Shown: piece by piece, positions 621 to 15,218 of the stretch | How the letters are laid out: the number at the start of each line of letters is the position of its first letter | Position numbering within the stretch: position 1 is the stretch's first letter | Assembly (NCBI GenBank): GCA_020852555.1 | Contig: JADZAQ010000022.1 | Location: forward strand, 1-33,732 | Origin: Burkholderiales bacterium | GTDB taxonomy: Bacteria > Pseudomonadota > Gammaproteobacteria > Burkholderiales > Casimicrobiaceae | Length of the DNA stretch: 33,732 bases | Reading direction: 5' to 3' | The notes under the pieces: generated by a model | The model's input: only the letters and a program-made list of their open reading frames with translations | What the model was told of the DNA's origin: nothing | Databases searched by the model: none | Program-made: the position numbers and the translations under genes

Positions 621-1979
621 TTGACCACAGCCGTGATCGATATCACGCGCCGCCTCGTTCACACCATCTCGAAAGCGGCGTCGCTTCCGCTGCCTCGCGA
701 AGCCGTCGAGACAGCCAGGGCGTGTCTATTGGACACGCTCGGGGTGGCTGTCCCCGGCAGCGGAGAACCCGCGGTAGGGATTTTGGATGACGTTGTCGGC
801 GGGTTGGCGGGCACCACCCAGTCGACCCTCTGGTTCCGCCGCCGCCGAATCCCCGCTCACGAAGCGGCGTTCATCAATGGCGCGGCCGCTCATGCGCTGG
901 ATTTCGACGACATGCACATCGAGTCCGCGATGCACCCCAGCGCTCCGGTGGTGGCCGCCGCCCTCGCTGTCGCCGAGATGTCGGATGCGCCGGGCGCTGC
1001 CATCCTGCGTGCCATCACGCTGGGTATCGAGACCGAGATCCGGCTTGGTAAGGCGGTCAATCCGAGCCATTACCAGCGCGGTTGGCATGCCACCGCGACG
1101 CTGGGACATTTTGGTTCTGCGGTTGCGGCCGCCGATCTGCTGGGACTTTCCGAAGAGCGAACCGTCGCGGCGCTGGGCATCGCCGGTACGCAATCCGGCG
1201 GCTTGAAGGAGACGTTCGGATCGATGACCAAGCCGCTCCACGCAGGCATTGCGGCGCGTAACGGCGTAATGGCCGCGCTGCTCGCCGCGCGCGGCTTCAC
1301 GAGTGCCGCCGACATTCTGGGCGGCCCGCTCGGGTTCGGTCACGTCATGTGCGACGCACCGGCGTGGGACGTCCTGCTCGACGATTGGGGTACCGATCAA
1401 CGCCCCTGGGCGATCAGCGAAATACTGTACAAGGCGCATGCATCGTCGTTTTGCACCCAGGCACTCATCGAGGCGGTGCTGGAGTTGAAAACGAGGCACG
1501 GCTTGCAATCGCACCAAGTAACCTCGATGCGAGGCGAGGTCAGCCCTCTCTCGGTGCAGAACGCGCCAATCCCGGAACCCGTCACGGGATTGGAGGCGAA
1601 GTTCAGCCTGCCCCACGCGATGGCGCAAGCCATTGCCTACGGCCATGCACGCGTCGCGGATTTCAGCGACGAGCGCATCGGTGAGCCGGCGCTGCGGATG
1701 TTGCGGCAGGCGACCACGATCACGGAAAGCGCGGCGCTTGCCTGGCCGGAAGCCTTCGCTACGCTGCGCCTGGTGGACGGTCGAGAGATATCGTCCCACA
1801 TCGACCTGCGCCATCGCACCGCGACCGCCCGCGACAAGTGGGCCGTCGTGGAGGCGAAGTTCATGGACTTGACTGCGGACCTGCTCCCGCCGGATAGCCG
1901 GCAAGGGATCGTCCGTGCTGTTCGCGGGCTCGACGCAGCCCCGGATCTGCGTGAATTGCTGGCGCATCTCGGAGGCTGA
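621..1979 (+). CDS. MmgE/PrpD family protein (2-methylcitrate dehydratase-like)
   Basis: The 452-residue product matches the MmgE/PrpD family in length and landmarks: an N-terminal helical domain with ARACLLDTLGVAVPGSGEP, then INGAAAHALDFDDMH (residues about 88-102), HPSAPVVAAALAVAE, and GWHATATLGHFGSAVAAADLLGL. The family includes 2-methylcitrate dehydratase (PrpD), cis-aconitate decarboxylase and epimerase-like enzymes. Without neighbouring prpB or prpC, true PrpD function is not supported, and the relatively short length fits the broader family better. The start is TTG at 621 with no clear Shine-Dalgarno; GTG at 633 is an alternative. It converges with the minus-strand crotonase, whose stop lies 32 bp downstream. 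The family call is secure; the substrate is unknown, probably a small hydroxy- or unsaturated polycarboxylate. Confidence 0.82.
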   Translation: MTTAVIDITRRLVHTISKAASLPLPREAVETARACLLDTLGVAVPGSGEPAVGILDDVVGGLAGTTQSTLWFRRRRIPAHEAAFINGAAAHALDFDDMHIESAMHPSAPVVAAALAVAEMSDAPGAAILRAITLGIETEIRLGKAVNPSHYQRGWHATATLGHFGSAVAAADLLGLSEERTVAALGIAGTQSGGLKETFGSMTKPLHAGIAARNGVMAALLAARGFTSAADILGGPLGFGHVMCDAPAWDVLLDDWGTDQRPWAISEILYKAHASSFCTQALIEAVLELKTRHGLQSHQVTSMRGEVSPLSVQNAPIPEPVTGLEAKFSLPHAMAQAIAYGHARVADFSDERIGEPALRMLRQATTITESAALAWPEAFATLRLVDGREISSHIDLRHRTATARDKWAVVEAKFMDLTADLLPPDSRQGIVRAVRGLDAAPDLRELLAHLGG

Positions 1980-3045: not shown

Positions 3046-3074
3046 TTGACACATTTGATTCAATAGGTGAATAT
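3046..3074 (+). promoter_or_regulatory. predicted sigma70 promoter of the iclR-mutase operon
   Basis: A consensus -35 TTGACA (3046-3051) is followed after 17 bp by GAATAT (3069-3074), a fair -10 element. Transcription would begin near 3081. The -10 lies just beside and inside the inverted repeat at 3058-3093, so a bound repressor should block RNA polymerase. The location also makes an ATG at 3067, which sits in the -10 region, impossible as the iclR start on this transcript. Confidence 0.7.
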
Positions 3075-3093
3075 TCTTTTCAGCCTATTGAAT
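3058..3093. promoter_or_regulatory. perfect 10-bp inverted repeat, candidate IclR operator
   Basis: ATTCAATAGG (3058-3067) is mirrored by CCTATTGAAT (3084-3093) with a 16-bp AT-rich spacer. The arm centres are 26 bp apart, roughly two and a half helical turns. The repeat overlaps the -10 element and the expected transcription start, immediately upstream of the iclR ATG at 3100. IclR-family repressors often autoregulate through such palindromic sites, so the cognate IclR is the obvious candidate ligand. Confidence 0.65.
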
Positions 3094-3099
3094 TCGCCG

Positions 3100-3843
3100 A
3101 TGGCACGCGTCCGCACCGCCGACCGCACACTCGCGATCTTCGAGACCTTCGAAACCGCGTGCCGGCCTATGGTGCTCACCGAGCTCGCGGCCCGGGCGCA
3201 GGTACCGGTTAGCAGCTGTCACGGCCTCGTGCGCACGCTCCTCGAGCGCGGCTACCTCTATTCGCTCGGACGTCGTAAGGACATTTATCCGACCCGGCGC
3301 CTCCTCGACGTCGCGCAGACGATCGTTCATCACGATCCTCTCCTCGAGCGGATCGGACCCGTGCTGCAGGCGTTGCGCGACAACGTCCGCGAGACGGTCA
3401 TCCTCGGAAAGCGGCAGGGGGATCTCGTGCTCTACCTCGAGGTCATCCCCGGATTGCACACCGTCCGCTACGCGGCAAATACGGGCGAGTTCAAGCCGCT
3501 GCATTCGAGCGCGATTGGCAAGGCGTTGCTGGGGGCGCTTTCCACGGAAGCGCTTGCCGACTGGTTGCGGACGCATCCGCTGCCGGTGATCACGCCCCGG
3601 ACGCTGGTGGACCCCACCCGCTTGCACGCCGATTTGGCGCGCAGCCGCGCGCGTGGTTACTACATGACCGACGGGGAGAATGTCTCGGATGTGGCGGCGC
3701 TCGCCGTCTCGCTCCTGGTGCACGGCGAGGTACTCGGCTTTGCCATTGCTGGCCCGACGCACCGGATGAATGCGCAGATCGATGAAAACGCCGCGCACCT
3801 GCTCGACGCGCAACGAGCCATCGCGAAGATCTTCGAGAGATGA
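3100..3843 (+). CDS. IclR family transcriptional regulator
   Basis: This 247-residue protein has the two IclR domains. The N-terminal winged helix-turn-helix covers about residues 1-75, with LTELAARAQVPVSSCHGLVR as the recognition region. The C-terminal effector-binding domain contains TVRYAANTGEFKPLHSSAIG and, near the end, VAALAVSLLVHGEVLGFAIAGP. The ATG at 3100 (MARVRTADRTL) is chosen over ATG 3067 because the latter lies inside the promoter and operator, and because family proteins begin near this point. The gene is the first of a run of coupled genes: its stop overlaps the next start in ATGA at 3840-3843. Being first in the operon beneath an inverted repeat predicts autorepression relieved by a pathway metabolite. 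The effector is not readable from the sequence. Confidence 0.92.
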   Translation: MARVRTADRTLAIFETFETACRPMVLTELAARAQVPVSSCHGLVRTLLERGYLYSLGRRKDIYPTRRLLDVAQTIVHHDPLLERIGPVLQALRDNVRETVILGKRQGDLVLYLEVIPGLHTVRYAANTGEFKPLHSSAIGKALLGALSTEALADWLRTHPLPVITPRTLVDPTRLHADLARSRARGYYMTDGENVSDVAALAVSLLVHGEVLGFAIAGPTHRMNAQIDENAAHLLDAQRAIAKIFER

Positions 3844-4628
3844 GTGCGCCCGAATACCTGCGCGTCGAGGTCGTCGAACGTATTCTGCGGGTGCGCATCG
3901 ATCGTCCGGAAAAGCGCAATCCGCTCAGCCGGGCGGTCCTGGATGAGCTTCGCCAGGTATTCGCCGAGTACGCGAACGACGCGTCGCTGTGCGCCGCCGT
4001 CGTCACCGGAACCGGCGACAAGAGCTTCGCTGCCGGCGGCGATTTGAAGGAATTCGCCGCGTTCCGCAGCGAGGACGACGCCGCAGCACTGTTCCGCGAT
4101 GCCAATGAAGCGTTGGGCACGATTCGGTGGTTTCCGGTGCCCGTGGTGGCGGCGCTCAATGGGACGGCGATCGGCGGTGGCGCGGAGCTGGCGGTCGCTT
4201 GCGATTTCCGCATTGCCGCGGCGCACGCCACCATCGGATTTGTACAGGGGCGGCTCAACATCTCGACCGGGTTCGGCGGTGGCGCCGATCTCGTGCAACT
4301 GGTCGGCCCACGCACGGCCCTGTCGCTCCTGATTGGCGCCCAGGTTCTCGAAGCATCCGAAGCGAAGCGGATCGGCCTCGTCGACGAGGTGGCCACCGAG
4401 GGCGAAACCCTCGACGCTTGCGTCGAGCGCTTTCTGGGGCGAATCCGCGCGCACGTGCCGCAAGTGCTTCGCGCATTCAAGGCCGTCGCTTCCAGCGGGC
4501 GACGGGGATTGCCCCGCGCTGCACGCGAAGACGCGGAGCGCACGAGCTTCGTTTGCACTTGGACGCACCCCGATCATTGGCAAGCCGCCGAGCGCTTGCT
4601 GGACCGCATGGGACGAGGTATTGCATGA
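3840..4628 (+). CDS. crotonase-family protein, possible acyl-CoA decarboxylase or hydratase
   Basis: This 262-residue crotonase-fold protein has the oxyanion-hole strand SFAAGGDLKEF and the second loop AIGGGAELAVACD. The residue equivalent to rat hydratase Glu144 is present as Glu116, but the Glu164 equivalent, exactly 20 residues later, is Gln136 in IGFVQGRLNISTGFGGG. The motif F-V-x-x-x-L-x-x-S-T-G-x-G-G-G is unlike standard hydratases (PExxLGxxPGAGG) and reminds me of crotonases acting as alkylmalonyl-CoA decarboxylases or mutase-associated proof-reading enzymes; this is an inference. The gene overlaps iclR upstream and the mutase large subunit downstream, each by four bases, so its product probably acts just before or after the mutase. 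Hydratase or thioesterase activity remains possible. Confidence 0.82.
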   Translation: MSAPEYLRVEVVERILRVRIDRPEKRNPLSRAVLDELRQVFAEYANDASLCAAVVTGTGDKSFAAGGDLKEFAAFRSEDDAAALFRDANEALGTIRWFPVPVVAALNGTAIGGGAELAVACDFRIAAAHATIGFVQGRLNISTGFGGGADLVQLVGPRTALSLLIGAQVLEASEAKRIGLVDEVATEGETLDACVERFLGRIRAHVPQVLRAFKAVASSGRRGLPRAAREDAERTSFVCTWTHPDHWQAAERLLDRMGRGIA

Positions 4629-6253
4629 GCACTCCCACAGGAAATGGCGCCGCCGCTGGCGCCAATCCACAGACGCCTTCATCATTTATTCGCTCGGGAA
4701 TCGAGGCGCCAATCGTCGCAACGTCCGACACGCCGCGGACGCACGATCCCGGCTTGCCTGGCCAATACCCGTTCACCCGGGGAATTTTTGCCGACGGCTT
4801 TCGGGGCCGCATGTGGACGATGCGCCAGTACTCCGGCTTCGGCACGCCGGAGGAATCGAACGCACGCTATCGCTTCTTGCTCGATCGCGGCCAGACCGGC
4901 TTGTCGATCGCGCTGGATCTGCCGACGCAGTGCGGGCTCGATCCATCCGATCCGATGGCGCGGCCGGAAATCGGCAAGGTCGGCGTCTCCCTCTCGAATC
5001 TCTCGGAGATGGAACTCCTGTTCCAGGGCATCGATCTGTCGCGGATCTCGACCTCGTTCACCATCAACGGAACCGCAGCGATCATCTACGCGATGTACAT
5101 CGCCTGCGCCGATCGAAACGGGGTGCCGCGCGAGAAGCTCACCGGCACCATTCAGAACGACATCTTGAAGGAGTACGTCGCACGCGGCACCTGGATCTTT
5201 CCGGTGCAGCCCTCGATGCGACTGATCTCGGACACGATCTTGTTCGGCAATCGCGAGACGCCGCGCTTCAACACCATCTCCATCGCCGGTGCGCACATGC
5301 GCGACGCCGGGTGTACCGCGGCGGAGGAAATGGCGTTCACCCTGTCCAACGGGCTCGCCTACGTCGATGAGCTGTTGCGTCGCGGGGGCGAGGTCGATAC
5401 GTTTGCCAAGCGCTTGTCGTTCTTCTTCTACGTGCACATGGACCTCTTCGAGGAGGTCGCGAAATTCCGGGCCGGCCGGCGCGTGTGGGCTCGCTTGCTT
5501 CGCGACCGCTACGCGGTCAGCGATCCGAAAGCGCAGATGTTCCGCTTCGGGGTGGTGTGCGGCGGCTCGTCTCTGGTGGCGCCGCAGCCCTACAACAACG
5601 TGGTCCGGGTATCGATTGAAACGATGGCTGCGGTGCTCGGTGGGGCACAGTCGATCTTTACCTGCGCGTACGACGAGCCGTTCCAGATTCCCACCGAGTT
5701 TTCCGCCGAACTCGCCCTGCGCACCCAGCAGATCGTCGCACACGAGAGCGGCATTGCGCGCACCGTCGATCCACTGGGTGGCAGCTATTACACCGAATAT
5801 CTCACCGACGAGATGGAGCGGCAAATCGATGCGCTGATGAAGGAAGTCGATGACTACGGTGGAACGGTCAGAACGATCGAGGACGGCTGGATGCAGCAGC
5901 GCGTCGCGCGGCGTGCCCACGAGAGAAAACAGCAGATCGACAGCGGCACGTTGCCCGTGGTCGGTCTGAACTGCTTCCGTCGCGATGACCAGTCTGCCGA
6001 CTCCGGCGAAGTTTTCCATCTGGACCCCGAGGTCAGTCGCCGGGTCCTCGAGAAGCTCGCGGGAATCCGCGAGCGGCGGAACGCGAGCGAGGTTGCACGC
6101 ACGCTCGATCGTTTCCAGCAAGCCGCCGCCAACGATGGCGAGAACCTCATGCCGTACCTTATCGATTGCTGTCACGCGTACGCCACGGTGGGCGAAATGG
6201 TGTCTCGCCTGAAAAGCCAGTGGGGCGAATTTCTGGAGCCCGTGCAGCTATGA
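4625..6253 (+). CDS. B12-dependent acyl-CoA mutase, large (catalytic) subunit
   Basis: The 542-residue product is the TIM-barrel half of a methylmalonyl-CoA-mutase-family enzyme without the C-terminal B12 domain; that domain is the next gene. The open frame extends far upstream, but ATG 4625 overlaps the crotonase stop (ATGA) and gives a normal N-terminus. With a constant 20-residue offset to Propionibacterium MutB (recalled from memory), Tyr69 matches Tyr89, Arg187 matches Arg207, His224 matches His244, Arg263 and Ser265 match Arg283 and Ser285. Tyr and Arg at the first two are the methylmalonyl-type signature; isobutyryl- and 2-hydroxyisobutyryl-CoA mutases have Phe/Gln and Ile/Gln. Yet Tyr243 is Ala223, and after a one-residue shift His328, Gln330 and Trp334 are Gly309, Val311 and Ser315. 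A carboxylated but bulkier substrate is therefore likely. Confidence 0.93.
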   Translation: MSTPTGNGAAAGANPQTPSSFIRSGIEAPIVATSDTPRTHDPGLPGQYPFTRGIFADGFRGRMWTMRQYSGFGTPEESNARYRFLLDRGQTGLSIALDLPTQCGLDPSDPMARPEIGKVGVSLSNLSEMELLFQGIDLSRISTSFTINGTAAIIYAMYIACADRNGVPREKLTGTIQNDILKEYVARGTWIFPVQPSMRLISDTILFGNRETPRFNTISIAGAHMRDAGCTAAEEMAFTLSNGLAYVDELLRRGGEVDTFAKRLSFFFYVHMDLFEEVAKFRAGRRVWARLLRDRYAVSDPKAQMFRFGVVCGGSSLVAPQPYNNVVRVSIETMAAVLGGAQSIFTCAYDEPFQIPTEFSAELALRTQQIVAHESGIARTVDPLGGSYYTEYLTDEMERQIDALMKEVDDYGGTVRTIEDGWMQQRVARRAHERKQQIDSGTLPVVGLNCFRRDDQSADSGEVFHLDPEVSRRVLEKLAGIRERRNASEVARTLDRFQQAAANDGENLMPYLIDCCHAYATVGEMVSRLKSQWGEFLEPVQL

Positions 6254-6669
6254 GCCCGACACCCGACGAGGCGCCGTCGCTGCTCGGCAAACGCATTCTG
6301 ATCGCCAAGCCCGGTCTCGACGGTCATGACGTGGGCGCCAAGGTCGTGGCGCTCGCCCTTCGCGACGCCGGTGCCGACGTCATCTATACCGGGCTGCGCA
6401 AGGCGCCGGGCTTCATAGCCCGTGTGGCGGTTGACGAGGACGTCGATGCGGTCGGCCTGTCCATTCTCTCGGGAAGCCATAACGAGCTCGTCACCCAGAC
6501 TCTCGAACAGTTGCACGCCCTCGGTGCTGGCGACATCCCCGTATTCGTGGGCGGAACGATTCCGGCGGATGACCAGCGCGCGCTGCGTGCGCAAGGCGTA
6601 CGCGGTGTCTACACCAGTGACATCCCGCTCGACGACGTCATCGCGAGCCTCTCCAGCCTGCTCTCATGA
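6250..6669 (+). CDS. B12-binding small subunit of the acyl-CoA mutase
   Basis: This 139-residue protein is a standalone cobalamin-binding Rossmann-like domain. It carries the base-off/His-on motif Asp24-x-His26-x-x-Gly29 in GLDGHDVGAKVV, the later S-x-L element in GLSILSGSH, and the glycine pair in PVFVGGTIPADD. Lys20 in LIAKPGLDGHD is at the usual conserved position. It should bind adenosylcobalamin and dock on the large subunit encoded just upstream, with which it overlaps by four bases (ATGA). The split arrangement resembles isobutyryl-CoA and 2-hydroxyisobutyryl-CoA mutases and archaeal methylmalonyl-CoA mutases, not the fused bacterial MutB type. Its stop overlaps the CoA-transferase start. 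Confidence 0.94.
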   Translation: MSPTPDEAPSLLGKRILIAKPGLDGHDVGAKVVALALRDAGADVIYTGLRKAPGFIARVAVDEDVDAVGLSILSGSHNELVTQTLEQLHALGAGDIPVFVGGTIPADDQRALRAQGVRGVYTSDIPLDDVIASLSSLLS

Positions 6670-7790
6670 GCCTTCCCCTCTCCGGCAAGCGGATCATCGA
6701 AGTAGGCCACATGCTGATGGGGCCGTACTGCGGGATGCTCCTTGCGGATCTTGGAGCCGAGGTCATCAAGGTCGAGCCTCGAGACGGGGACATCGCCCGG
6801 TCGATCAGCCCGCATCGTGTCGGCGGCCACAATGCCTACTTCGCGAGCCTCAACCGCAACAAGAAGAGCGTTGTTCTGGATCTGGCGTCCGAATCCGGGC
6901 GGGCTGATCTCGTCGCTCTCGTACGCACCGCCGCCGGCTTGATCACCAATCTTCGCCCCAGCGCCATTCGCAAGCTTGGTCTCACCTACGATGCGCTCAA
7001 GTCCGCGAACCCGGCGCTCGTCTGTGTGGCCCTCACTGGCTACGGTTTGGAAAGCCCTTTTGCCGAGCGGCCGGCGTACGACTACGTGATCCAGGCGCTG
7101 ACCGGAGTGATGGCCCTGACCGGGGACCCCGACGACCCGCCCACGAAGACAGGTTACTCGGCCGTGGACAATTCGGCGGGGATCATGGGCGCGGTAGGCC
7201 TCCTCGCAAAGCTGGTGGAAGGAAAGGGGGGACAGGTCGACATCGCGATGTACGACGTGATGCTTTCCCAGTTGAACTACCTGGCCGGAGCATGGCTGAA
7301 TGCGGCCGAGCGGCCCGAGCGGCATCCGCATTCCGCGCACCCCTATATCGTTCCTGCGCAGATCTTCCGGACCGCGGACGGCTGGCTCACTCTGTTCATT
7401 ACCCACGACCGCTTCTGGCACCTCTTCTGCGACGAAATCAGGCATCCGGAATGGATCGTCGATCCACGCCTGGCCACGATGTCAGCGCGACGGGCGAATC
7501 GCGAGTTCGCGTTGGATTCCATCGCCGAAGTCATTGCCGCCGACACGACCGAACACTGGGTCTCCAGGCTCGCACCGCTGGGCATCGTCGCCGCAGGTGT
7601 CGAGAGCCTCGAGGTGGCGCTGGCGAGTGAGCACGCGCGAGCGCGGCAGATGGTTGCCACCATTCCAGCCGCGGAAGGACAGATCCGGGTCGTCGGTAAC
7701 CCGATCAAGCTTTTCGGGGTGAGCGACGAATATCGTGCCCCTCCGATGCTGGGCGAACACAACCGCAGCCTGCTGAATCACACAAAGTGA
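6666..7790 (+). CDS. class III (CaiB/BaiF family) CoA-transferase
   Basis: The 374-residue product has the class III CoA-transferase layout: the N-terminal GKRIIEVGHMLMGPYCGMLLADLGAEVIKVE (split across two motifs) at residues about 7-38, NRNKKSVVLDL, and AYDYVIQALTGVMALTGDP. Asp168 in SAVDNSAG aligns with the catalytic aspartate (Asp169 of formyl-CoA transferase), which forms the mixed anhydride and the aspartyl-CoA thioester intermediate. Relatives use succinyl-CoA, acetyl-CoA or formyl-CoA as donor and act on oxalate, carnitine, benzylsuccinate, itaconate or mesaconate. Overlapping the B12 subunit by four bases and the GTPase by four bases, it most likely activates the imported acid before the mutase acts. 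Donor and acceptor are not determinable here. Confidence 0.92.
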   Translation: MSLPLSGKRIIEVGHMLMGPYCGMLLADLGAEVIKVEPRDGDIARSISPHRVGGHNAYFASLNRNKKSVVLDLASESGRADLVALVRTAAGLITNLRPSAIRKLGLTYDALKSANPALVCVALTGYGLESPFAERPAYDYVIQALTGVMALTGDPDDPPTKTGYSAVDNSAGIMGAVGLLAKLVEGKGGQVDIAMYDVMLSQLNYLAGAWLNAAERPERHPHSAHPYIVPAQIFRTADGWLTLFITHDRFWHLFCDEIRHPEWIVDPRLATMSARRANREFALDSIAEVIAADTTEHWVSRLAPLGIVAAGVESLEVALASEHARARQMVATIPAAEGQIRVVGNPIKLFGVSDEYRAPPMLGEHNRSLLNHTK

Positions 7791-8698
7791 GCGGAGCGAC
7801 ACCCACACCCGTGAGCATCGACCGTCGCGGCCTGGCGCGCGCGCTGAGCCGTGCGGTGCGCGCGAGCGTCGATGAGACGCTGCACAGCGCGGGAAGCACC
7901 GGATCGGCAGCGCCGCGGATCGGCGTCACGGGATCGCCCGGCGTTGGCAAGAGCTCGCTCGTCGCGCGGCTCGCGCGCCTTCGCGTGGAGCGCACAGCTC
8001 CCTTGGCCGTGATCGCCATCGATCCCACCAGTCCGAATACCGGCGGATCGCTGCTTGGGGATCGCATTCGTATGGACTCGGTTGCTGACGATCCGCGGAT
8101 CTATATTCGTTCGCTGGCCAGTGGTCAGACCCAGGATGGCCTGAGCGACAACCTGCCCGAGGTCATTGCGGCGATCGACGACTTCGGCTTCGCGGAAATC
8201 ATCGTCGAGACCGTCGGGGTCGGTCAATCCGAATACGCGATTCGGCAGTTGGCCGACGTCGAATTGCTCGTCCTGATGCCGGGCTCGGGTGACGCAGTAC
8301 AGGCGATGAAGGCCGGCATTCTCGAGACGGCCGACATCATCGTCGTCAACAAGGCGGACCTTGCCGGTGCGCAGGCGACGGCACACGACCTCCGTTCGGT
8401 CCTCGGTCGACGGCGCAAGACCCCCGCACCGCCGATCGTCCTCGTTCGCCACGACGAGGACGCGGGCCTGCATGAATTGAGCCGGCTGATCGATGAGGCG
8501 CTGGTGCGGTGTGCCCGGCCGGGTGCCGAGGTCGCTCGGCGGCGCCGGCTCAACCGATACCGGGTACATATGCTCGCGGTGCGTCGCCTCAACGAGGTGC
8601 TGGAGCGGCTGCCCGCGTCCCGTTTCGACGAGCACGCGGCAGACGTCTACCGCGATCTGCTTGCACGGCTGATCGAGCCGCCAAGGAACCACGACTAG
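7787..8698 (+). CDS. MeaB/ArgK-type GTPase, mutase chaperone
   Basis: This 303-residue G3E-class P-loop GTPase has the Walker A motif GSPGVGKS at residues 49-56, AIDPTSPNTGGSLLGDRIRM (switch region), VETVGVGQSE (Walker B/G3 region) and the guanine-specificity motif VNKAD. MeaB proteins gate cobalamin loading and remove inactivated cofactor from B12 acyl-CoA mutases, which fits its position four genes below the mutase. The start is GTG 7787 in a GTGA overlap with the CoA-transferase stop. The N-terminal extension before the P-loop is short (about 44 residues) compared with many MeaB proteins, and the C-terminus retains the helical dimerisation region. Cotranscription with the mutase implies a dedicated chaperone. 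Confidence 0.92.
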   Translation: MSGATPTPVSIDRRGLARALSRAVRASVDETLHSAGSTGSAAPRIGVTGSPGVGKSSLVARLARLRVERTAPLAVIAIDPTSPNTGGSLLGDRIRMDSVADDPRIYIRSLASGQTQDGLSDNLPEVIAAIDDFGFAEIIVETVGVGQSEYAIRQLADVELLVLMPGSGDAVQAMKAGILETADIIVVNKADLAGAQATAHDLRSVLGRRRKTPAPPIVLVRHDEDAGLHELSRLIDEALVRCARPGAEVARRRRLNRYRVHMLAVRRLNEVLERLPASRFDEHAADVYRDLLARLIEPPRNHD

Positions 8699-8723
8699 CG
8701 CTCGCAGTTCCAACCACAACGTG

Positions 8724-8730
8724 AAGGAGG
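8724..8730 (+). promoter_or_regulatory. Shine-Dalgarno deciding the dctP start
   Basis: AAGGAGG lies five bases upstream of ATG 8736. An in-frame GTG at 8721 sits ahead of this site and is therefore rejected as the start. Confidence 0.85.
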
Positions 8731-8735
8731 CATAT

Positions 8736-9749
8736 ATGTACGCAACATTCGGAATGATGTTCCGGGCGCTTCTGGTGACGGGAGTCCTCATGGCGTATGG
8801 AGTCGGTACTGCTCAAGTCCTGAATCTGAAGCTCGCGCATCAGTGGCCGCAGGACGAATCCGACTATGTCATCGCGACCGCGGCCAAGTTCGTGCAGGAG
8901 GTCGAGAAGCGCTCCAATGGGCAGATCAAGATCACGGTGTTCCCGGCGGAATCCCTCGTCAAGGCGGGAGCGACCCACACCGCCCTCAAGAACGGGACGG
9001 TCGATCTCGCGGTATATCCGTACATCTATGCGGCCGGCGCCATTCCGGAGATGAACCTGGTCCTGCTGCCGGGACTGTGGAAGACCCATGACGACGTATT
9101 CGCGTTTCGTACTTCGGAAGCGTGGAAGCGCCTCGAGCAGAAGGCCGAGGCTTTCGGGTTCAAGACGCTGTCGTGGATCCAGATTTCCGGGGGTGTGGCA
9201 TCGACGAAGAAGGCGATTCACAAACCGGAAGACGTCTCGGGGTTGAAGCTTCGAGCGGCGGGCAAATTCATGGAGTACGCGTTGCAGCAGGCGGGGGCGA
9301 GTACCGTCTCGATGCCCTCGTCGGAGAATTACAGCGCGATGCAACTCGGGCTGCTCGATGGCATGTGGACGTCGTCGGGTTCGTTCGGAGCGTATCGCAT
9401 CTACGAGGTGGCCAAGTATTACGTCTCACCCGTGGATTTCAGCGTCTACTTCACGATCGAGCCCATCGCGATCAGCATGAAGACCTGGAACAAGCTTAGT
9501 CCCGAGCAACAGAAGATCATGATGGAGGTCGGCGCGAGCCTCGAGCAACCCGCGCTCGAGGGTGCGAAGAAGGAGGATTCGCGCGTCGCGAAGCTGTTCG
9601 CCGACAAGGGCGTCAAGGTCGAGAAGATGAGTGAGCCCGACTGGAAGACTTGGCAAGCCTGGTTCGCGCAGCACAGCTTCACGAAATTCGCCAAGGACAT
9701 TCCGGGTGGTGAGGAACTGATCCGCGACAGCAGCCGTTTCACGAAGTGA
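8736..9749 (+). CDS. TRAP transporter substrate-binding protein (DctP type)
   Basis: The 337-residue protein begins with a Sec-type signal peptide (hydrophobic FRALLVTGVLMAYGVGTAQ, cleavage near residue 27) followed by the DctP fold. Visible features are KLAHQWPQDES, the ligand-site arginine Arg173 in GLKLRAAG, which in DctP proteins salt-bridges a substrate carboxylate, and the hinge segment YSAMQLGLLDGMWT. Periplasmic capture of a carboxylic acid is the expected role. It follows the GTPase by 37 bp, has the strongest Shine-Dalgarno of the operon and overlaps dctQ by GTGA. The arginine supports an anionic ligand matching the acyl-CoA pathway upstream. Confidence 0.92.
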   Translation: MYATFGMMFRALLVTGVLMAYGVGTAQVLNLKLAHQWPQDESDYVIATAAKFVQEVEKRSNGQIKITVFPAESLVKAGATHTALKNGTVDLAVYPYIYAAGAIPEMNLVLLPGLWKTHDDVFAFRTSEAWKRLEQKAEAFGFKTLSWIQISGGVASTKKAIHKPEDVSGLKLRAAGKFMEYALQQAGASTVSMPSSENYSAMQLGLLDGMWTSSGSFGAYRIYEVAKYYVSPVDFSVYFTIEPIAISMKTWNKLSPEQQKIMMEVGASLEQPALEGAKKEDSRVAKLFADKGVKVEKMSEPDWKTWQAWFAQHSFTKFAKDIPGGEELIRDSSRFTK

Positions 9750-10279
9750 GGGAAGAAGTCGGACCTGGTTGGCGGCACACTCCCCCGGGCGATGGTGATC
9801 GCCGGGGGTGGTTCGCCGGTGCGACCCGATGGTCGGGAATCGCGGTCGGTGCGGCCGCGTTCCTGATTGCGATATTTGTCACCATCGAAGTCATCGGCCG
9901 TGCCGCTCTGGGGATAACCACCGCTTGGGTCAATGACCTTTCGATGTATCTGACGGCGTTCATCACTTTCATCGGAGCGGCATACGCGCTCGCCGAGGGG
10001 GCGCACGTCAATGTCGATGTCGTGCTGACGCGTGTGAAGCCTGGCACAAGGCGCGTGCTGGTGCGCGTGGCTGACGCCGTCGTCATCGCGATATTGGCGA
10101 TCCTCACCTGGCTCAGTGCGGCGTTCTGGTGGGACGCCTTTACCAGCGGCGAGCAATCGTGGGGCCTGGTTGCCATCCGCTTGTGGATCCCATACTCGTT
10201 CCTTGCAATCGGCATGGCCTGGATGCTTGCCATGCAAATCGTCTTGATCATCGCCCGCGAGCGGGACACTGCGAGCTGA
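9746..10279 (+). CDS. TRAP transporter small membrane subunit (DctQ type)
   Basis: This 177-residue membrane protein has four predicted helices, beginning near SGIAVGAAAFLIAIFVTIEVIGR, then MYLTAFITFIGAAYALAEGAH, AVVIAILAILTWLSAAFWW and YSFLAIGMAWMLAMQIVLI. The segment EGAHVNVDVV is typical of DctQ. GTG 9746 overlaps the dctP stop, and no other ATG or GTG occurs in frame before the first helix, so a 30-residue polar, Gly/Arg-rich N-terminal tail must be translated. That tail contains a strong RNA hairpin. It pairs with DctM to form the sodium-driven permease. Identification is by topology and context. Confidence 0.88.
   Translation: MREEVGPGWRHTPPGDGDRRGWFAGATRWSGIAVGAAAFLIAIFVTIEVIGRAALGITTAWVNDLSMYLTAFITFIGAAYALAEGAHVNVDVVLTRVKPGTRRVLVRVADAVVIAILAILTWLSAAFWWDAFTSGEQSWGLVAIRLWIPYSFLAIGMAWMLAMQIVLIIARERDTAS
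9782..9808 (+). promoter_or_regulatory. stable stem-loop at the dctP-dctQ junction
   Basis: The sequence CCCCCGGGCGAT, loop GGTG, ATCGCCGGGGG can form a stem of about 11 pairs, nearly all G-C, with one bulged G (9787). It lies 33 bases past the dctP stop, inside the dctQ N-terminal codons. There is no T tract, so it is not a standard terminator. A hairpin here could protect the 3' end of a dctP transcript and give more binding protein than permease. Confidence 0.55.
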
Positions 10280-10316
10280 GCAAGCCGACCGTCGGTCGAC
10301 TCGCTGGGAAGGAACA

Positions 10317-11627
10317 ATGGAAATCTGGGTCGGGTTGGCGATGTTCGCCGCGCTCATCACCCTTCTCGCCATCGGGGTCCCCGTCGCGTTCGGGCTGTTT
10401 GGCGTCGGAATCGGCGCGCTGTACCTTCAGGGTGGTGACCTCGACGCCTTGGGTCTGGTGGCGCCCACTCTTTGGGGCTCGATCACGAGTTTCACGCTGA
10501 CGGCCGTACCCCTGTTCATCCTCATGGGGGCGATCATCTCCGTATCGGGCATGGGTTCACGACTCTACACGTCGCTGGCCACGCTGATGCACGGAGTGCC
10601 TGGCGGCCTCATCGTCGCCACCACGCTTGCCTGCACCATCATGGCCGCCGTCTCCGGGTCGAGCGTCGCAACCGCCGGAGCGATCGGCCGTTTCTCGGTC
10701 AATGAGATGCGCCGCTTCGGCTATCGCGACAGCACGTCGTGCGGCGCCGTTGCCGCGGGCGGCACGTTGGGAATCTTGATTCCGCCCAGCATTCCGATGA
10801 TTGTCTATGGCATCGTCGCCGAGCAATCGATCGGCAAGCTGTTCATCGCCGGGATCGTCCCCGGTCTTGTGATGGCTGGAGCGTTCATCACCTATCAAGT
10901 CATCAGCGCGCTCCGCGAGCAGACCCGGATCAAGCGACCCGCGGCCGCTCTCAACATCAGCTGGCGCGACCGGCTGCTCGCGCTGCGGCATATTGGTCCG
11001 ATCGCCATTCTCATCTGGATCATATTGGGTTCCATCTACCAGGGGATCGCGACCCCGACCGAAGCGGCGGCCCTTGGCGCACTCGCGAGCCTGGCGCTCT
11101 CGGCAGCAATCTATCGTGAGCTCGACTCGCGAAAGCTGCGGGTCATCCTGCAAGAGACCGCGCGAGGGAGCGTGATGGTGCTGATGATCATCGCGGGTGC
11201 GATGGTCTTCGGTTATGCGATGACGGCAACGCAGGTTGCGCCCGTGATTTCCCGTACGGTTGCGCAACTCGACGTGTCGCCGTGGCTCGTCTTCATTGCG
11301 ATCAACCTGCTCTTGATCTTTCTCGGTTGCTTCATGGAGACGCTGTCGATCATCGTCATCACGACCCCCATTCTTGTTCCGATCATCACGATGTTCGGCT
11401 GGGATCTGATCTGGTTTGGGATCATCCTCATCATCAACATGGAGATGGCCCTCATTACGCCGCCGGTTGGTCTCAATCTATTCGTCGTGCAAGGCGTCGT
11501 ACGCGACGTCAGCCTCGAGCGGATCATCATGGGGACGCTCCCCTATGTTGTGATCATGCTGATCGTCCTGGCGCTCGTCGCAGTATTTCCGGGGCTTGCC
11601 ACCGCCTTAATCGGCGACGTCCGATAG
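10317..11627 (+). CDS. TRAP transporter large membrane subunit (DctM type)
   Basis: The 436-residue protein is a multi-helix (about 12) membrane protein of the DctM/ion-transporter superfamily. Landmarks are the N-terminal WVGLAMFAALITLLAIGVPVAF, PLFILMGAIISVSGMG, SGSSVATAGAIGRF, the repeated GGTLGILIPPSIPMIVYGIVAEQSIGKLF (in two pieces), and NMEMALITPPVGLNLFVVQG near the C-terminus. It carries out sodium-coupled transport with DctQ. It starts at ATG 10317 with GGAAGGA upstream, 37 bp after dctQ, and is the last gene of the nine-gene operon; a convergent LacI gene ends 60 bp further on. No strong terminator with a T tract is visible in that gap. Confidence 0.93.
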   Translation: MEIWVGLAMFAALITLLAIGVPVAFGLFGVGIGALYLQGGDLDALGLVAPTLWGSITSFTLTAVPLFILMGAIISVSGMGSRLYTSLATLMHGVPGGLIVATTLACTIMAAVSGSSVATAGAIGRFSVNEMRRFGYRDSTSCGAVAAGGTLGILIPPSIPMIVYGIVAEQSIGKLFIAGIVPGLVMAGAFITYQVISALREQTRIKRPAAALNISWRDRLLALRHIGPIAILIWIILGSIYQGIATPTEAAALGALASLALSAAIYRELDSRKLRVILQETARGSVMVLMIIAGAMVFGYAMTATQVAPVISRTVAQLDVSPWLVFIAINLLLIFLGCFMETLSIIVITTPILVPIITMFGWDLIWFGIILIINMEMALITPPVGLNLFVVQGVVRDVSLERIIMGTLPYVVIMLIVLALVAVFPGLATALIGDVR

Positions 11628-11687: not shown

Positions 11688-12713
11688 TTACCGCAGGCCT
11701 CCGCGCTGTCCCGAGGGCGGCGGTGCGAGCGACGCCGCGGCAACGTACTCCGCCTCGAGCATGACGCGCCTCGGCCTTGTCGCGGGCTCGCGGATGCGCA
11801 GCAGAATGCGTTGCCAAGTCTCGCGTGCGATGCGCTGCGTTGGGTGGCGAACGACGGCGAGCGGCGGTGAGAGGATCGGCGCCCACACCGGCTCGTCGAA
11901 GGCGAGCAACGATACGTCCGCGGGCCAGCGCTTGCCCATTGCCATGAGATTGTGAACCAGCGTCAGCGCGATCGCGCTGTTGCTGGCGATGATGGCGGTC
12001 GGCCTCGTCTCGCGAAAGACTTGCCGCAACTGCTGCGCGAACGCATCATCCGCAGGTTTGCGCTGCAGCACGGCAGCTCGCGCCGCACGCACGTTGCGTA
12101 CCGCCTCTTCGAAACCCTCGATGCGCTGGTGCGTTGTCGGTAGGCGCGGATCGTTCACGATGAAGAGCAGCCGGCGGTGGCCCAACGTGAGCACCTCGCG
12201 CGTGGCTTTGCGCATCGCCCTGCGATCGTCGATCGCGACGTAGTCGAAGCGACGGTCGACCCCGATACGGTCGACGATGACCGTCGGCGTCGCGCGCTCT
12301 GCCACAAGATCCAAGGTGGCGCGTGCGTCGTAAGTGGGAATCAGGATGAGCGCATCGACGTTGCGGCCAACCAGCGCCTGTACGCGGCGAAGCTCGAGTG
12401 CCGGGTCACCGCGGCTCAACACCTGCATGATCTCGTAACCGTCGGCGGCGGCAAGCTGCTCGAACACCTCGAGGAGTGCGGCGAAGTACGCACTCGAGGT
12501 GAGGGGGGCACATAGCCCGATGACGCGCGATTCGCTGCGTCGCAGCGTCTGCGCAGCGGCGTTGGGCACGTAACCCAGCGCGACCATGGCCGCTTCCACG
12601 CGCGCGCGACGCGTGTCGCCGACGTGAGCGCGGCCGTTGATGACGTTGGACACGGTGCCGAGCGACACGCGGGCGCGCTCGGCAACGTCGACCATGGTGG
12701 GCTTGCGCGGCAT
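11688..12713 (-). CDS. LacI family transcriptional repressor
   Basis: The 341-residue protein has the LacI N-terminal helix-turn-helix (TMVDVAERARVSLGTVSNVI, residues about 6-25) with the hinge helix at PNAAAQTLRR, then a periplasmic-binding-protein-like sensor domain (VIGLCAPLTSSAYFAALLEVFEQ, ALILIPTYD, RRLLFIVNDPR). ATG 12713 has GGAGGT seven bases upstream. It is divergent from the enolase-superfamily gene; the 103-bp gap contains the palindrome TTGAAACGTTTCAA, a typical LacI/GalR-family operator with a central CpG. It should repress the dehydratase-ABC operon until a sugar-like inducer binds. Confidence 0.94.
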   Translation of the reverse strand: MPRKPTMVDVAERARVSLGTVSNVINGRAHVGDTRRARVEAAMVALGYVPNAAAQTLRRSESRVIGLCAPLTSSAYFAALLEVFEQLAAADGYEIMQVLSRGDPALELRRVQALVGRNVDALILIPTYDARATLDLVAERATPTVIVDRIGVDRRFDYVAIDDRRAMRKATREVLTLGHRRLLFIVNDPRLPTTHQRIEGFEEAVRNVRAARAAVLQRKPADDAFAQQLRQVFRETRPTAIIASNSAIALTLVHNLMAMGKRWPADVSLLAFDEPVWAPILSPPLAVVRHPTQRIARETWQRILLRIREPATRPRRVMLEAEYVAAASLAPPPSGQRGGLR

Positions 12714-12760
12714 CGCGGTAACCTCCGTTCATCTCACGTCCGCCTGTCTCCCTCCCCCCC

Positions 12761-12789
12761 TTGCGCGGCGCGCGGATCGAGCGTAGGGT
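12761..12789 (+). promoter_or_regulatory. possible promoter of the enolase-superfamily/ABC operon
   Basis: TTGCGC (12761-12766) and TAGGGT (12784-12789) are separated by 17 bp. Both hexamers are imperfect, but start of transcription near 12796 would put the LacI operator at about +2 to +15. A run of C residues (12744-12760 area) precedes the -35. Confidence 0.45.
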
Positions 12790-12797
12790 AGCACTCT

Positions 12798-12811
12798 TTG
12801 AAACGTTTCAA
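12798..12811. promoter_or_regulatory. perfect 14-bp palindrome, LacI-family operator
   Basis: TTGAAACGTTTCAA is its own reverse complement and has the central AACGTT core of LacI/GalR operators. It lies between divergent lacI-type and dehydratase genes and ends only five bases before the dehydratase ATG, so a bound repressor would block initiation or elongation at the very start of the transcript. Confidence 0.85.
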
Positions 12812-12816
12812 GTCCG

Positions 12817-13950
12817 ATGAGAATCGTCCGCGTCGACACCTTCAAGTATTGGGTCGACTGGTGCAACTGGATGTTCGTGCGGGTGAGCACGGACGAGGGC
12901 CTCGTCGGCTGGGGCGAGGCGTCGCTGCACGGGGCCATCGAAGCCGTCGAGGCGGCAGTACACGAGTATGCGCGGCACCTCGTCGGTGAGGATCCAGCCG
13001 GGCCGGAGCGGCACTGGCACCGCCTTTATCACGCATGGCGCTGGCGTGGCGGTGCGGTGTTCCAGACAGCGTTGTCGGCGCTCGACGTTGCGCTGTGGGA
13101 TCTCGAGGGCAAGCGACTTGGCGTGCCGGTCGCGCGTTTGCTGGGCGGGGTGTTCCGCACCTCGTTGCGTGGCTATGCGAGCCACTGGCTGCAGGGGGTG
13201 ACGACTCCCGAGCAGGCATTCGACGGTGCCCGGGAGGCGGTGCGCCGTGGCTTTCGCGCGTTCAAGTGTCGCCCTTTCTCGTACGAAGGGCTGCGCGATG
13301 ACGAGGCTGGCGAGATCCGCCGCGCCGCAGCACTGGTCGAGGCCGCGCGCGACGGCTTGGGTCCTGACGGCGAGATCTATATCGAGTGCAGCGAGTTCCT
13401 TTCACCGCGCACCGCGGTGCTGCTCGATGATGCGCTGCGTCCGTACCGCCCCGGCTGGTTCGAGGAGCCGATTCCATTCGAGAACGCGAAGGCGATGGCG
13501 CAGCTTCAGCGCGATCTACGTACGCCGATCGCCACCGGCGAGCGCTTGCTCTCGCGACAGGAGTACCGCGAGATCATCGAGAATGCGGGCTGCCGCATCA
13601 TCCAGCCGGACCTCATGCACGCCGGCGGCTTCACCGAGGTGCGGCGGATCGCGATGCTCGCCGACATGTACGACATTCCGGTCGCGCCACACAATCCCGG
13701 GGGGCCGATCTGCACTGCCGCGGCGATGCATCTCGCCGCGTCGATCCCGAATTTCCTCGTCCTCGAGCAGATGGAACCGCAGCGCGCGCAGCGCGATCGG
13801 GCATCGAGCGTGCCCATCCGCTTCGACGCCGGTCACTTCCTGCTGCCGGACGGACCGGGGCTGGGCATCGAACCGAATCTCGAGGCGCTCGCGGAACACG
13901 CCTCTCGCCCCCAGCCGCGCACCGAGCGCGCGGGCTCGCTCTATCGATAG
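12817..13950 (+). CDS. enolase-superfamily (mandelate racemase/galactonate dehydratase-like) enzyme
   Basis: This 377-residue protein has the enolase-superfamily capping domain followed by the barrel. Metal-ligand and base positions are visible: Lys150-x-Arg152 in FKCRP, Glu190 in IECSE where most members have Asp, Glu217 in FEEP, Glu242 in TGER, Asp265 in QPDLMHAGG, His292 in APHNPGG paired with Asp265, and Glu317 in LEQME. His-Asp dyad chemistry with three carboxylate ligands fits an acid-sugar dehydratase, forming a 2-keto-3-deoxy sugar acid. The Glu at the first ligand position is unusual. No Shine-Dalgarno precedes ATG 12817 and the predicted 5' leader is about 20 bases. It heads the LacI-controlled operon with an ABC importer. 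Substrate unknown. Confidence 0.88.
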   Translation: MRIVRVDTFKYWVDWCNWMFVRVSTDEGLVGWGEASLHGAIEAVEAAVHEYARHLVGEDPAGPERHWHRLYHAWRWRGGAVFQTALSALDVALWDLEGKRLGVPVARLLGGVFRTSLRGYASHWLQGVTTPEQAFDGAREAVRRGFRAFKCRPFSYEGLRDDEAGEIRRAAALVEAARDGLGPDGEIYIECSEFLSPRTAVLLDDALRPYRPGWFEEPIPFENAKAMAQLQRDLRTPIATGERLLSRQEYREIIENAGCRIIQPDLMHAGGFTEVRRIAMLADMYDIPVAPHNPGGPICTAAAMHLAASIPNFLVLEQMEPQRAQRDRASSVPIRFDAGHFLLPDGPGLGIEPNLEALAEHASRPQPRTERAGSLYR

Positions 13951-13958
13951 GAGGACCG

Positions 13959-15218
13959 ATGCGCACCATTTCCCGCCTGGCCGCGGCGCTCGCGGCCGCA
14001 TTCGCGTGGACAGCCGCAGCGGCGCAGCAGCCGACCGTGTTGCAGTGGCAGACCGCCAATCTCACCGAGTCCCAGTACGAGCCGGTCTGGAAAGCGACCA
14101 TTGCCGAGTTCGAGAAGGACAACCCCGGCATCCGGATCGAGCCTGTGCTGGTTGCGCGCAAGGATCACTGGACGAAGTTCGTCGCCGCCGCGCAGGCGAA
14201 GAAGGCACCCTGCATCGTCAGCGTCGACCTCACCACCGCTGCGTACAACGGCTACCTCATGCCGCTCGACAAGTATTGGGATGCGGAGCCGGCGGAGTTC
14301 CGCCGCGCGTGGAGCCCCGACATGCTCTCGGCTTCGAAATGGAAGGGTCATTTGTACGGATTGCCGATCTGGGGCGGCACCTACGCCGAGATCTACAACC
14401 GGGATCTCGTCACGCGTGCGGGACTCGATCCCGCCAAGCCTCCGAAAACCTGGACCGAGTACCTGACGTGGGCGCGGAAGCTCACTGGTACCGACCATTG
14501 GGCGACCGCGGTACTTGGTGGGAAGACCGATACGACGACACGCATCCTCCTCATGTGGATCTGGTCGAACGGCGGCGAGGCATTCAACGCCGACATGACG
14601 GAGGCGACCTTCGCGAAGAACCCGAAGAGCCTCGAGGCCATCAAGTTCTACTTGGGCCTCGTGAAGGAGGGCGTGGCGGCACCGGCGCCGACGACCACCA
14701 ACTATCTGGAGCAGACGAATCTCTTCGCGCAGCAGAAGATCGCCACCATGCGCAATGCGTACTGGGCGATCGCCAAGGTGAACGGCGACAATCCGGCGCT
14801 GAAGGGGAAGGTGTTCGTTGCGGCGCCGCCGGCGAACGTTCCGGATGCGCCGACGCTCACCAGTGTCGCCGCCTCGTCCATCTCGGCGAGCTGCCCCCAC
14901 CCCGATGCCGCGTGGAAGTTCATCAAGTTCGATGCGGGAAAGAAGTGGACCGTGGAGCGTGCCAAGGTGGCGAACTGGATGCCTACCCGCAACGACATGG
15001 CTGACGATCCGGCGATCCAGGCCGATCCGCTCCTCGCGCAGTTCGTGCGGATCGGCAACCACGCGCGCAGCTACCCGCTGCCGTCGCCGATCTGGGCCGA
15101 GATCTCGGCCAACGATATCGTCGACGCCGTGCAGCGGGCGCTGCTCGCGCCGGAGAAGACGGATGAGATCTTCCGCGACCTCGACGCGAAGGTCACCAAG
15201 AAACTGAAGGACCTGTAG
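13959..15218 (+). CDS. ABC sugar transporter substrate-binding protein
   Basis: The 419-residue product has a Sec signal peptide (MRTISRLAAALAAAFAWTAA, cleavage near AAAQQ) and the fold of family-1 extracellular solute-binding proteins. Typical segments are LQWQTANLTESQYEPVW, FEKDNPGIRIEPVLVARKDHW, HLYGLPIWGGTYAEIYNRD and GVAAPAPTT. It captures a carbohydrate in the periplasm for the two permeases that follow. AGGAGG stands just before ATG 13959, eight bases after the dehydratase stop. Cotranscription with the dehydratase suggests that the ligand is a sugar, a sugar acid or an oligosaccharide yielding one. Confidence 0.92.
   Translation: MRTISRLAAALAAAFAWTAAAAQQPTVLQWQTANLTESQYEPVWKATIAEFEKDNPGIRIEPVLVARKDHWTKFVAAAQAKKAPCIVSVDLTTAAYNGYLMPLDKYWDAEPAEFRRAWSPDMLSASKWKGHLYGLPIWGGTYAEIYNRDLVTRAGLDPAKPPKTWTEYLTWARKLTGTDHWATAVLGGKTDTTTRILLMWIWSNGGEAFNADMTEATFAKNPKSLEAIKFYLGLVKEGVAAPAPTTTNYLEQTNLFAQQKIATMRNAYWAIAKVNGDNPALKGKVFVAAPPANVPDAPTLTSVAASSISASCPHPDAAWKFIKFDAGKKWTVERAKVANWMPTRNDMADDPAIQADPLLAQFVRIGNHARSYPLPSPIWAEISANDIVDAVQRALLAPEKTDEIFRDLDAKVTKKLKDL

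Follow-up and report, generated by a model that had tools for sequence, protein, structure and literature searches.

B12-dependent acyl-CoA mutases are known for few substrates: methylmalonyl-, ethylmalonyl-, isobutyryl-, pivalyl-, 2-hydroxyisobutyryl-, phenylsuccinyl- and alkylsuccinyl-CoA. Here we analyse a stretch of 33,732 nucleotides from a Burkholderiales bacterium of the Casimicrobiaceae (GCA_020852555.1, contig JADZAQ010000022.1, positions 1 to 33,732, forward strand), hereafter the window, in which nine genes are arranged around a split mutase of this kind (large subunit P0001). An earlier note, made from the sequence alone, had read these genes as one operon serving a carboxylic acid that it left unassigned. 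Our results indicate that the mutase forms a new clade and sits in a new type of operon, both of them real and conserved, and that the gene set probably serves to break down a bulky substituted succinic acid by activation, skeletal rearrangement with a B12 enzyme of a new type and removal of CO2. Among the open-licence papers that our literature searches listed, no title or abstract describes this gene set.

On our comparison, the nearest published chemistry that we found is the auxin-degrading iaa pathway, and the nearest operon logic is that of E. coli sbm/scp; the earlier note missed both. For Aromatoleum aromaticum, PMC8360864 describes a phenylsuccinyl-CoA transferase, a mutase and a decarboxylating dehydrogenase (IaaL, IaaGH and IaaF), and gives a GGG motif as the mark of IaaF. 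The window resembles the pathway in its CoA-transferase, its split B12 mutase with Tyr89 and Arg207 (positions in methylmalonyl-CoA mutase, MCM, numbering), the changes at positions 328, 330 and 366, and the proposed loss of CO2 from a substituted malonyl-CoA. In the same account the decarboxylation is oxidative, by an acyl-CoA dehydrogenase, whereas we propose a crotonase for the window. Moreover, IaaG-type mutases, which we recognised at L100-L103, L115 and L117, keep Tyr243 (six rows, from relatives and not from A. aromaticum itself), and their pathway comes with hydantoinase-type and molybdenum-oxidoreductase genes (L118) in another gene order. By reading, the GGG motif is present in the dehydrogenases next to L101 and L103. 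Relatives of the window's genome also have iaa-type auxin-degradation genes (L118, L119 and L120), including an IaaG-type mutase and a dehydrogenase with the GGG motif, and with a GntR/FCD regulator, a thiolase, a ligase, a hydantoinase B, an acyl-CoA dehydrogenase and a molybdenum oxidoreductase subunit at L118.

The E. coli sbm operon decarboxylates succinate to propionate, according to PMC3850637. Like the window, scpA-argK-scpB-scpC unites a mutase, a GTPase, a crotonase-fold decarboxylase and a CoA-transferase in one operon, but its mutase is a single chain, ScpA has the canonical MCM residues, and ScpB is only 22% identical to the window crotonase. The E. coli CoA-transferase is presumably of another class than that of the window. 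The window module is best read as sharing the activate-rearrange-decarboxylate logic of sbm and iaa, with a remodelled pocket, another candidate decarboxylase and a class III transferase that scores best with a dicarboxylate model.

Three other systems were also compared. The mutases of L135-L137, which we take to be ethylmalonyl-CoA mutases (ECM), share Tyr89, Arg207 and Gly328 with the window family and differ in Tyr243, Gln330 and Pro366, at 35-36% identity and with open frames of 663-686 aa; ECM subunits are fused. The 2-hydroxyisobutyryl-CoA mutase (HCM; 4r3u, and L098 on a Methylibium plasmid) has separate large and small subunits like the window, but carries Ile at position 89 and Gln at 207, and the Methylibium operon has AMP-binding and TPP-binding proteins instead. 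Anaerobic alkane degraders turn alkylsuccinyl-CoA into alkylmalonyl-CoA, which is then decarboxylated; in their chemistry these steps resemble those proposed for the window module. The beginning differs, being a fumarate addition in anaerobes (PMC4402382), and PMC8360864 names alkylmalonyl-CoA for the alkane route.

The nine genes lie on the + strand from 3067 to 11627 in the order iclR-crotonase-mutL-mutS-CoA-transferase-meaB-dctP-dctQ-dctM, where the earlier note had placed them, and their families were assigned by Pfam and NCBIfam profile scans of the window proteins (Table 1). Inspection of the letters confirmed 4-bp overlaps at six of the eight junctions (ATGA at 3840, 4625, 6250 and 6666; GTGA at 7787 and 9746), all of which had been announced. 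Translational coupling had been claimed for all nine genes, but it is suggested for these six junctions only, because the other two are short gaps (22 bp between meaB and dctP, 37 bp between dctQ and dctM). The broader view of one operon-like unit, with an activate-rearrange-process logic and a B12 acyl-CoA mutase without assigned substrate, is supported by what follows.

The order of the core genes is strongly conserved. Of the 61 family loci whose upstream sequence extends for 700 bp or more, 60 have a crotonase related to that of the window as the next gene 5' of the mutase and in the same orientation (the exception is L018); the count is 58 of 59 when duplicates are left out (L009 equals L015, L012 equals L037). 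Controls show no such pair (0/24 split MCM-like, 0/6 IaaG-type and 0/11 HCM-type, hence 0/41 in the three groups), and the arrangement is therefore not due to chance. The B12 subunit comes next after the mutase in all 62 family loci with enough downstream sequence, against 3/26 split MCM-like, 0/6 IaaG-type and 0/12 HCM-type controls. Partner genes were counted anywhere in the 54 loci whose downstream sequence is 2600 bp or longer, where we found matches to MeaB in 51, to the CoA-transferase in 47 (46 at 55% identity or more), to IclR in 40, and to the TRAP proteins in a minority (DctM 15, DctP 13). These counts define a core of crotonase, mutL and mutS, with the CoA-transferase and MeaB as usual companions. 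The earlier note had named a lack of co-occurrence in relatives as grounds for giving up its reading; the genes do keep company. Importers vary: the window has a TRAP system, eight of the 54 loci L013-L066 have a TAXI-TRAP pair (clusters c14 and c15), and Bradyrhizobium loci have ABC genes, recognised from the sequence without a family scan.

The family is also well delimited. A scan of genome contigs with patterns from the window mutase confirmed 113 relatives, and among the best 80 of them, which were kept, 54 (L013-L066) are 68-90% identical to the window and the next only 51%. This gap could be a bias, because the patterns derive from the window protein; a pattern-free tblastn of plasmids, however, also found seven records at 70-74% and then none above 51%. 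A quick tree built from 79 rows recovers the family as a single, fully supported clade, apart from the MCM, HCM and IaaG-type groups. By record labels its hosts are Beta-, Alpha- and Gammaproteobacteria, one SAR324 and two Acidimicrobiia. Its distribution is patchy, with hits at E <= 1e-180 in four of 64 genomes from the same bacterial family as the window and at E <= 1e-200 in two of 399 genomes of the order, own genome included in both, while a third, partial copy of the order (L106, 70% identity) appears at E <= 1e-130. The own genome (G000, 3.8 Mb, loci L002-L008) has ten stretches that match the mutase, in about eight genes; they include a separate mutase with canonical MCM residues (L003, G000:C199), an HCM-type mutase (L002) and two long open frames that we take to be fused IcmF (L006 and L007). 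Similarly, the three roseobacter genomes searched all carry the module, an ECM-type mutase and a separate mutase with canonical MCM residues.

The mutase residues give a clue to the substrate. All 63 family rows of the alignment (61 distinct) keep the MCM residues Tyr89, Gln197, Arg207 and His244, and all have Ala for Tyr243, Gly for His328 and Val for Gln330; Phe117 is Leu in 62 of them, and Asn366 is replaced by Cys (52 rows), Ala (10) or Ser (one). No row keeps any of the canonical Tyr243, His328, Gln330 and Asn366 found in 1req, 2xij, ScpA and L003, and P0001 has Ala, Gly, Val and Cys at these positions. Among 37 outgroup rows, Tyr243 and Gln330 are each kept in 36, and Asn366 in 35. His, Gln and Asn stand at 328, 330 and 366 in the six MCM rows, in E. 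coli ScpA and in the 14 HCM rows. Mutases thought to take larger side chains alter two or three of these positions, since IaaG-type rows have Ile328, Gly330 (five rows) or Ala330 (one) and Cys366, and the three ECM-type rows Gly328, Gln330 and Pro366, both types with Tyr243 in place. The window family alters all three, plus Tyr243. Tyr89 and Arg207 hold the substrate carboxylate in MCM, and because both are invariant in the family the substrate should carry a free carboxylate. A carboxylate pair that is kept in a pocket that is otherwise altered points to interconversion of a 2-substituted succinyl-CoA and a substituted malonyl-CoA.

Membership of the adenosylcobalamin-dependent acyl-CoA mutase superfamily is clear from the MM_CoA_mutase domain and from a B12 subunit with DxHxxG, whose motif residues D, G, H, D and G are identical in 62 of 62 rows. 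The window mutase scores below the cut-off of the full-length MCM model of NCBIfam, which we did not count because the protein is the large subunit alone. A 2-hydroxyisobutyrate route, a near comparison in the earlier note, is ruled out by operon content and by positions 89 and 207 (Ile and Gln in 14/14 HCM rows, Tyr and Arg in 63/63 family rows), even though HCM (4r3u) is the best PDB match by overall sequence. The phenylsuccinyl-CoA mutase IaaGH, or the auxin iaa operon proper, is ruled out by residues 243, 328, 330 and 366 and by those neighbours that were typed. Nor does the enzyme have the fused form with Gly328, Gln330 and Pro366 expected of an ethylmalonyl-CoA mutase, if our assumed ECM label is right. 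Another odd split mutase in the same order (L109:1441-3099) has Asn for Tyr89, Cys for Tyr243 and Ala at 328, 330 and 366, adjoins a B12 subunit and a MeaB-like gene (by eye), and possibly has yet another specificity.

The accessory proteins fit their families. The CoA-transferase is of class III, with a CoA_transf_3 domain and Asp168 in all 53 rows of at least 50% identity; its best NCBIfam model is succinyl-CoA:mesaconate CoA-transferase, at 237.5 bits and under the model cut-off of 700. The P-loop GKS of the MeaB-type GTPase is present in 53 of 53 rows. The TRAP system has DctP, DctQ and DctM, with the DctP Arg in 14 of 14 rows.

We propose, with a probability of about 0.55, that the genes form a module that breaks down a 2-substituted succinic acid whose side chain (alkyl, branched or aryl) is probably bulkier than a methyl group. 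This acid would enter the cell, in the window's host through the TRAP system, and would receive CoA through the class III CoA-transferase, with succinyl-CoA as the probable donor. The B12 mutase, its cofactor kept active by MeaB, would then shift the thioester group, converting R-succinyl-CoA to (R-CH2)-malonyl-CoA. Finally, the crotonase would remove CO2 to give R-CH2-CH2-CO-CoA, fit for ordinary beta-oxidation.

Decarboxylation is suggested mainly by the strict pairing of the crotonase with the mutase and by the chemistry of the expected mutase product. In the crotonase alignment (62 rows, from the window and from 61 loci that include two duplicates) the position of the hydratase Glu144 has Gln in 56 rows, His in six and Glu in none, a sign against a classical enoyl-CoA hydratase that is suggestive only. 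ScpB, a decarboxylase by annotation, has Pro there. Residues invariant in a 36-row alignment include Asn27, Asp68, Glu116, Lys214, Glu233, Trp241 and His246. The crotonase is not a YgfG/ScpB methylmalonyl-CoA decarboxylase, given the low identity. It may be like ECHDC1, the mammalian ethylmalonyl-CoA decarboxylase, for which F-V-H near Glu144 and a C-terminal Trp would be the marks.

Several observations weigh against the proposed route. The window's second crotonase (2012-2824) has Gly at the Glu144 position and still passes the NCBIfam enoyl-CoA hydratase cut-off. Nor does the Glu164 column help, since it holds Gln in 5z7r, the hydratase used as reference, but Glu in ScpB. The window crotonase is 35% identical to 5z7r, a short-chain enoyl-CoA hydratase, and 22% to ScpB over 192 residues, and enoyl-CoA hydratases head the best 60 PDB matches listed for its profile. 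That positions 243, 328, 330 and 366 line the pocket, facing the substrate or the adenosyl group, is our assumption from MCM structures. Eight of the 54 loci have no CoA-transferase of at least 50% identity (L021, L023, L028, L055, L056, L057, L061 and L064); together with the rarity of DctP, this makes the earlier claim of one complete route too strong. Finally, the substrate may differ between hosts, because the neighbouring genes differ between lineages.

A bolder version of the proposed route can be put forward only tentatively. The family would represent a new substrate class of B12 mutases, in which a pocket hollowed by Tyr243Ala and remodelled at 328, 330 and 366 rearranges bulky 2-substituted succinyl-CoA esters, paired with a new, non-oxidative alkylmalonyl-CoA decarboxylase of the crotonase type. 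Placed behind varied oxygenases and importers, the module would finish branched or cyclic compounds such as terpenoid acids.

A smaller substrate is unlikely but deserves attention, because of the MmgE/PrpD gene upstream. Methylsuccinate or another small C5 dicarboxylate could be activated, methylsuccinyl-CoA passing through ethylmalonyl-CoA to butyryl-CoA, with the MmgE/PrpD protein perhaps as epimerase. The best model of the CoA-transferase and the presence of the MmgE/PrpD gene in the window and in L015 agree with this, and MmgE/PrpD proteins of an itaconate/methylsuccinate cluster isomerise (S)- and (R)-methylsuccinate (PMC12290011). However, PrpD matches are listed in only three of 58 loci (L015, L027 and L041), many of the loci being short upstream, and the three roseobacter genomes have both the module and an ECM-type mutase. 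The changed pocket also fits less well, with Ala and Val where the three enzymes that we take to be ECM keep Tyr243 and Gln330.

It is similarly doubtful that the crotonase acts as a hydratase, isomerase or thioesterase in a later step, with the malonyl-CoA product handled otherwise. The closeness of its sequence to hydratases rather than to ScpB would suit such a role, as would annotated hydratases that lack Glu144, like the one at 2012-2824; the strict pairing with the mutase suggests instead an action on the mutase product or substrate.

We think it rather improbable that the substrate is an arylsuccinate formed in the oxygen-dependent breakdown of auxin-like or lignin-like compounds. The module would then be the non-oxidative counterpart of iaa, as a special case of the proposed route. 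IaaG-type mutases alter 328, 330 and 366 too, and monooxygenase or 2-oxoglutarate oxygenase genes neighbour several loci. The clade also groups weakly with IaaG in the quick tree (Shimodaira-Hasegawa-like approximate likelihood ratio test, SH-aLRT, 86), a grouping not to be trusted because long branches meet at the join, as the tree tool warned. Against it, positions 243, 328, 330 and 366 read A/G/V/C in the window family and Y/I/G/C in IaaG, and the typed neighbours, which are part of all neighbours, include no hydantoinase and no GGG-type acyl-CoA dehydrogenase.

Import of a substituted malonate, with the mutase running in reverse to a substituted succinyl-CoA, is very unlikely. Mutase reactions are reversible, and the closest solved chain to the window DctP is 4mco_A, presumably a malonate complex, but the linked crotonase would be left without a clear role. 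Least probable of all is an ordinary MCM operon of propionate metabolism, which the earlier note had itself held up as a possible refutation and which Tyr89, Arg207 and the names of the Pfam and NCBIfam models would allow, since Tyr243, His328 and Gln330 are changed in every family row and both the own genome and the three roseobacter genomes have a separate mutase with canonical residues.

A further specificity of B12 mutases is to be expected from a distinct clade whose remodelled pocket is invariant and whose crotonase partner is almost always present. Pathway prediction could be misled by the annotation in the records that we saw, where the protein is named a methylmalonyl-CoA mutase family protein. 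If the crotonase does decarboxylate bulky malonyl-CoAs, it would be a further type of crotonase-fold decarboxylase and a tool for handling alkylmalonyl-CoA. The presence of the family in records labelled Paraburkholderia, Bradyrhizobium, Halomonas, Roseovarius and Sulfitobacter makes these predictions testable in cultured strains.

Table 1. Genes of the operon and other features of the window, with the basis of each assignment
Feature	Position	Strand	Basis
IclR-family regulator	3067-3843 (likely start ATG 3100)	+	Pfam IclR_C, HTH_IclR
Crotonase-fold protein, proposed substituted-malonyl-CoA decarboxylase	3840-4628	+	Pfam; Glu144 position; mutase adjacency
B12-dependent acyl-CoA mutase large subunit (P0001), distinct clade	4625-6253	+	Pfam MM_CoA_mutase E 7.4e-188; site residues; quick tree
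Mutase small B12-binding subunit, DGHDxG motif	6250-6669	+	Pfam B12-binding
Class III (CaiB/Frc) CoA-transferase, candidate catalytic Asp168	6666-7790	+	Pfam CoA_transf_3 E 4.6e-109
MeaB-type GTPase (mutase chaperone)	7787-8698	+	Pfam MeaB
TRAP solute-binding protein DctP with Arg178	8721-9749	+	Pfam DctP
TRAP small permease DctQ	9746-10279	+	Pfam DctQ
TRAP large permease DctM	10317-11627	+	TIGR00786 E 6.1e-110
MmgE/PrpD-family protein, outside the operon	621-1979	+	Pfam MmgE_PrpD
Candidate operator, perfect inverted repeat ATTCAATAGG-16 nt-CCTATTGAAT	3058-3093	.	Sequence

A perfect 10-bp inverted repeat lies directly before ATG 3100 and spans GTG 3067, the listed start of iclR. The true start is probably ATG 3100, since the GTG falls within the repeat, which is itself likely to be an operator. 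By eye, the right half, TTCAGC..TGAA, also occurs at the corresponding position before iclR in L013, L014 and L015; the full-length repeat, looked for there, was not found.

We typed about 35 chosen neighbouring genes, with one representative per cluster for marine loci. They depend on the lineage and include TAXI-TRAP, MFS, P450, Rieske, 2-oxoglutarate oxygenase, luciferase-type monooxygenase, a sulfopyruvate-decarboxylase-like pair and AtzE amidase, and within this sample the recurrent ones indicate no single substrate. In marine loci such as L024, L029, L034, L046 and L049 the module stands beside a 2-oxoglutarate/Fe(II) oxygenase, a luciferase-type monooxygenase, a 3-hydroxyisobutyrate-dehydrogenase-like gene and a two-subunit sulfopyruvate-decarboxylase-like enzyme. 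Elsewhere a second, different B12 mutase set adjoins it (L056:2144-7155, L061:12515-14547 and L093:831-4124).

Upstream of the operon, the stretch 621-2824 of the window has the MmgE/PrpD gene and, on the opposite strand, the second, divergent crotonase; both are 78% identical to genes at the same place in L015. The MmgE/PrpD protein is a possible epimerase of the substrate, though the link is weak. The itaconate/methylsuccinate cluster described in PMC12290011 was considered for this gene and set aside, no search being made for the other genes of that cluster. Downstream, at 11688-15218, translations (no family scan) suggest what seems to be a separate cluster for a sugar acid, with a LacI-like regulator, a binding protein of the sugar type and a gene like those of the enolase/mandelate racemase group.

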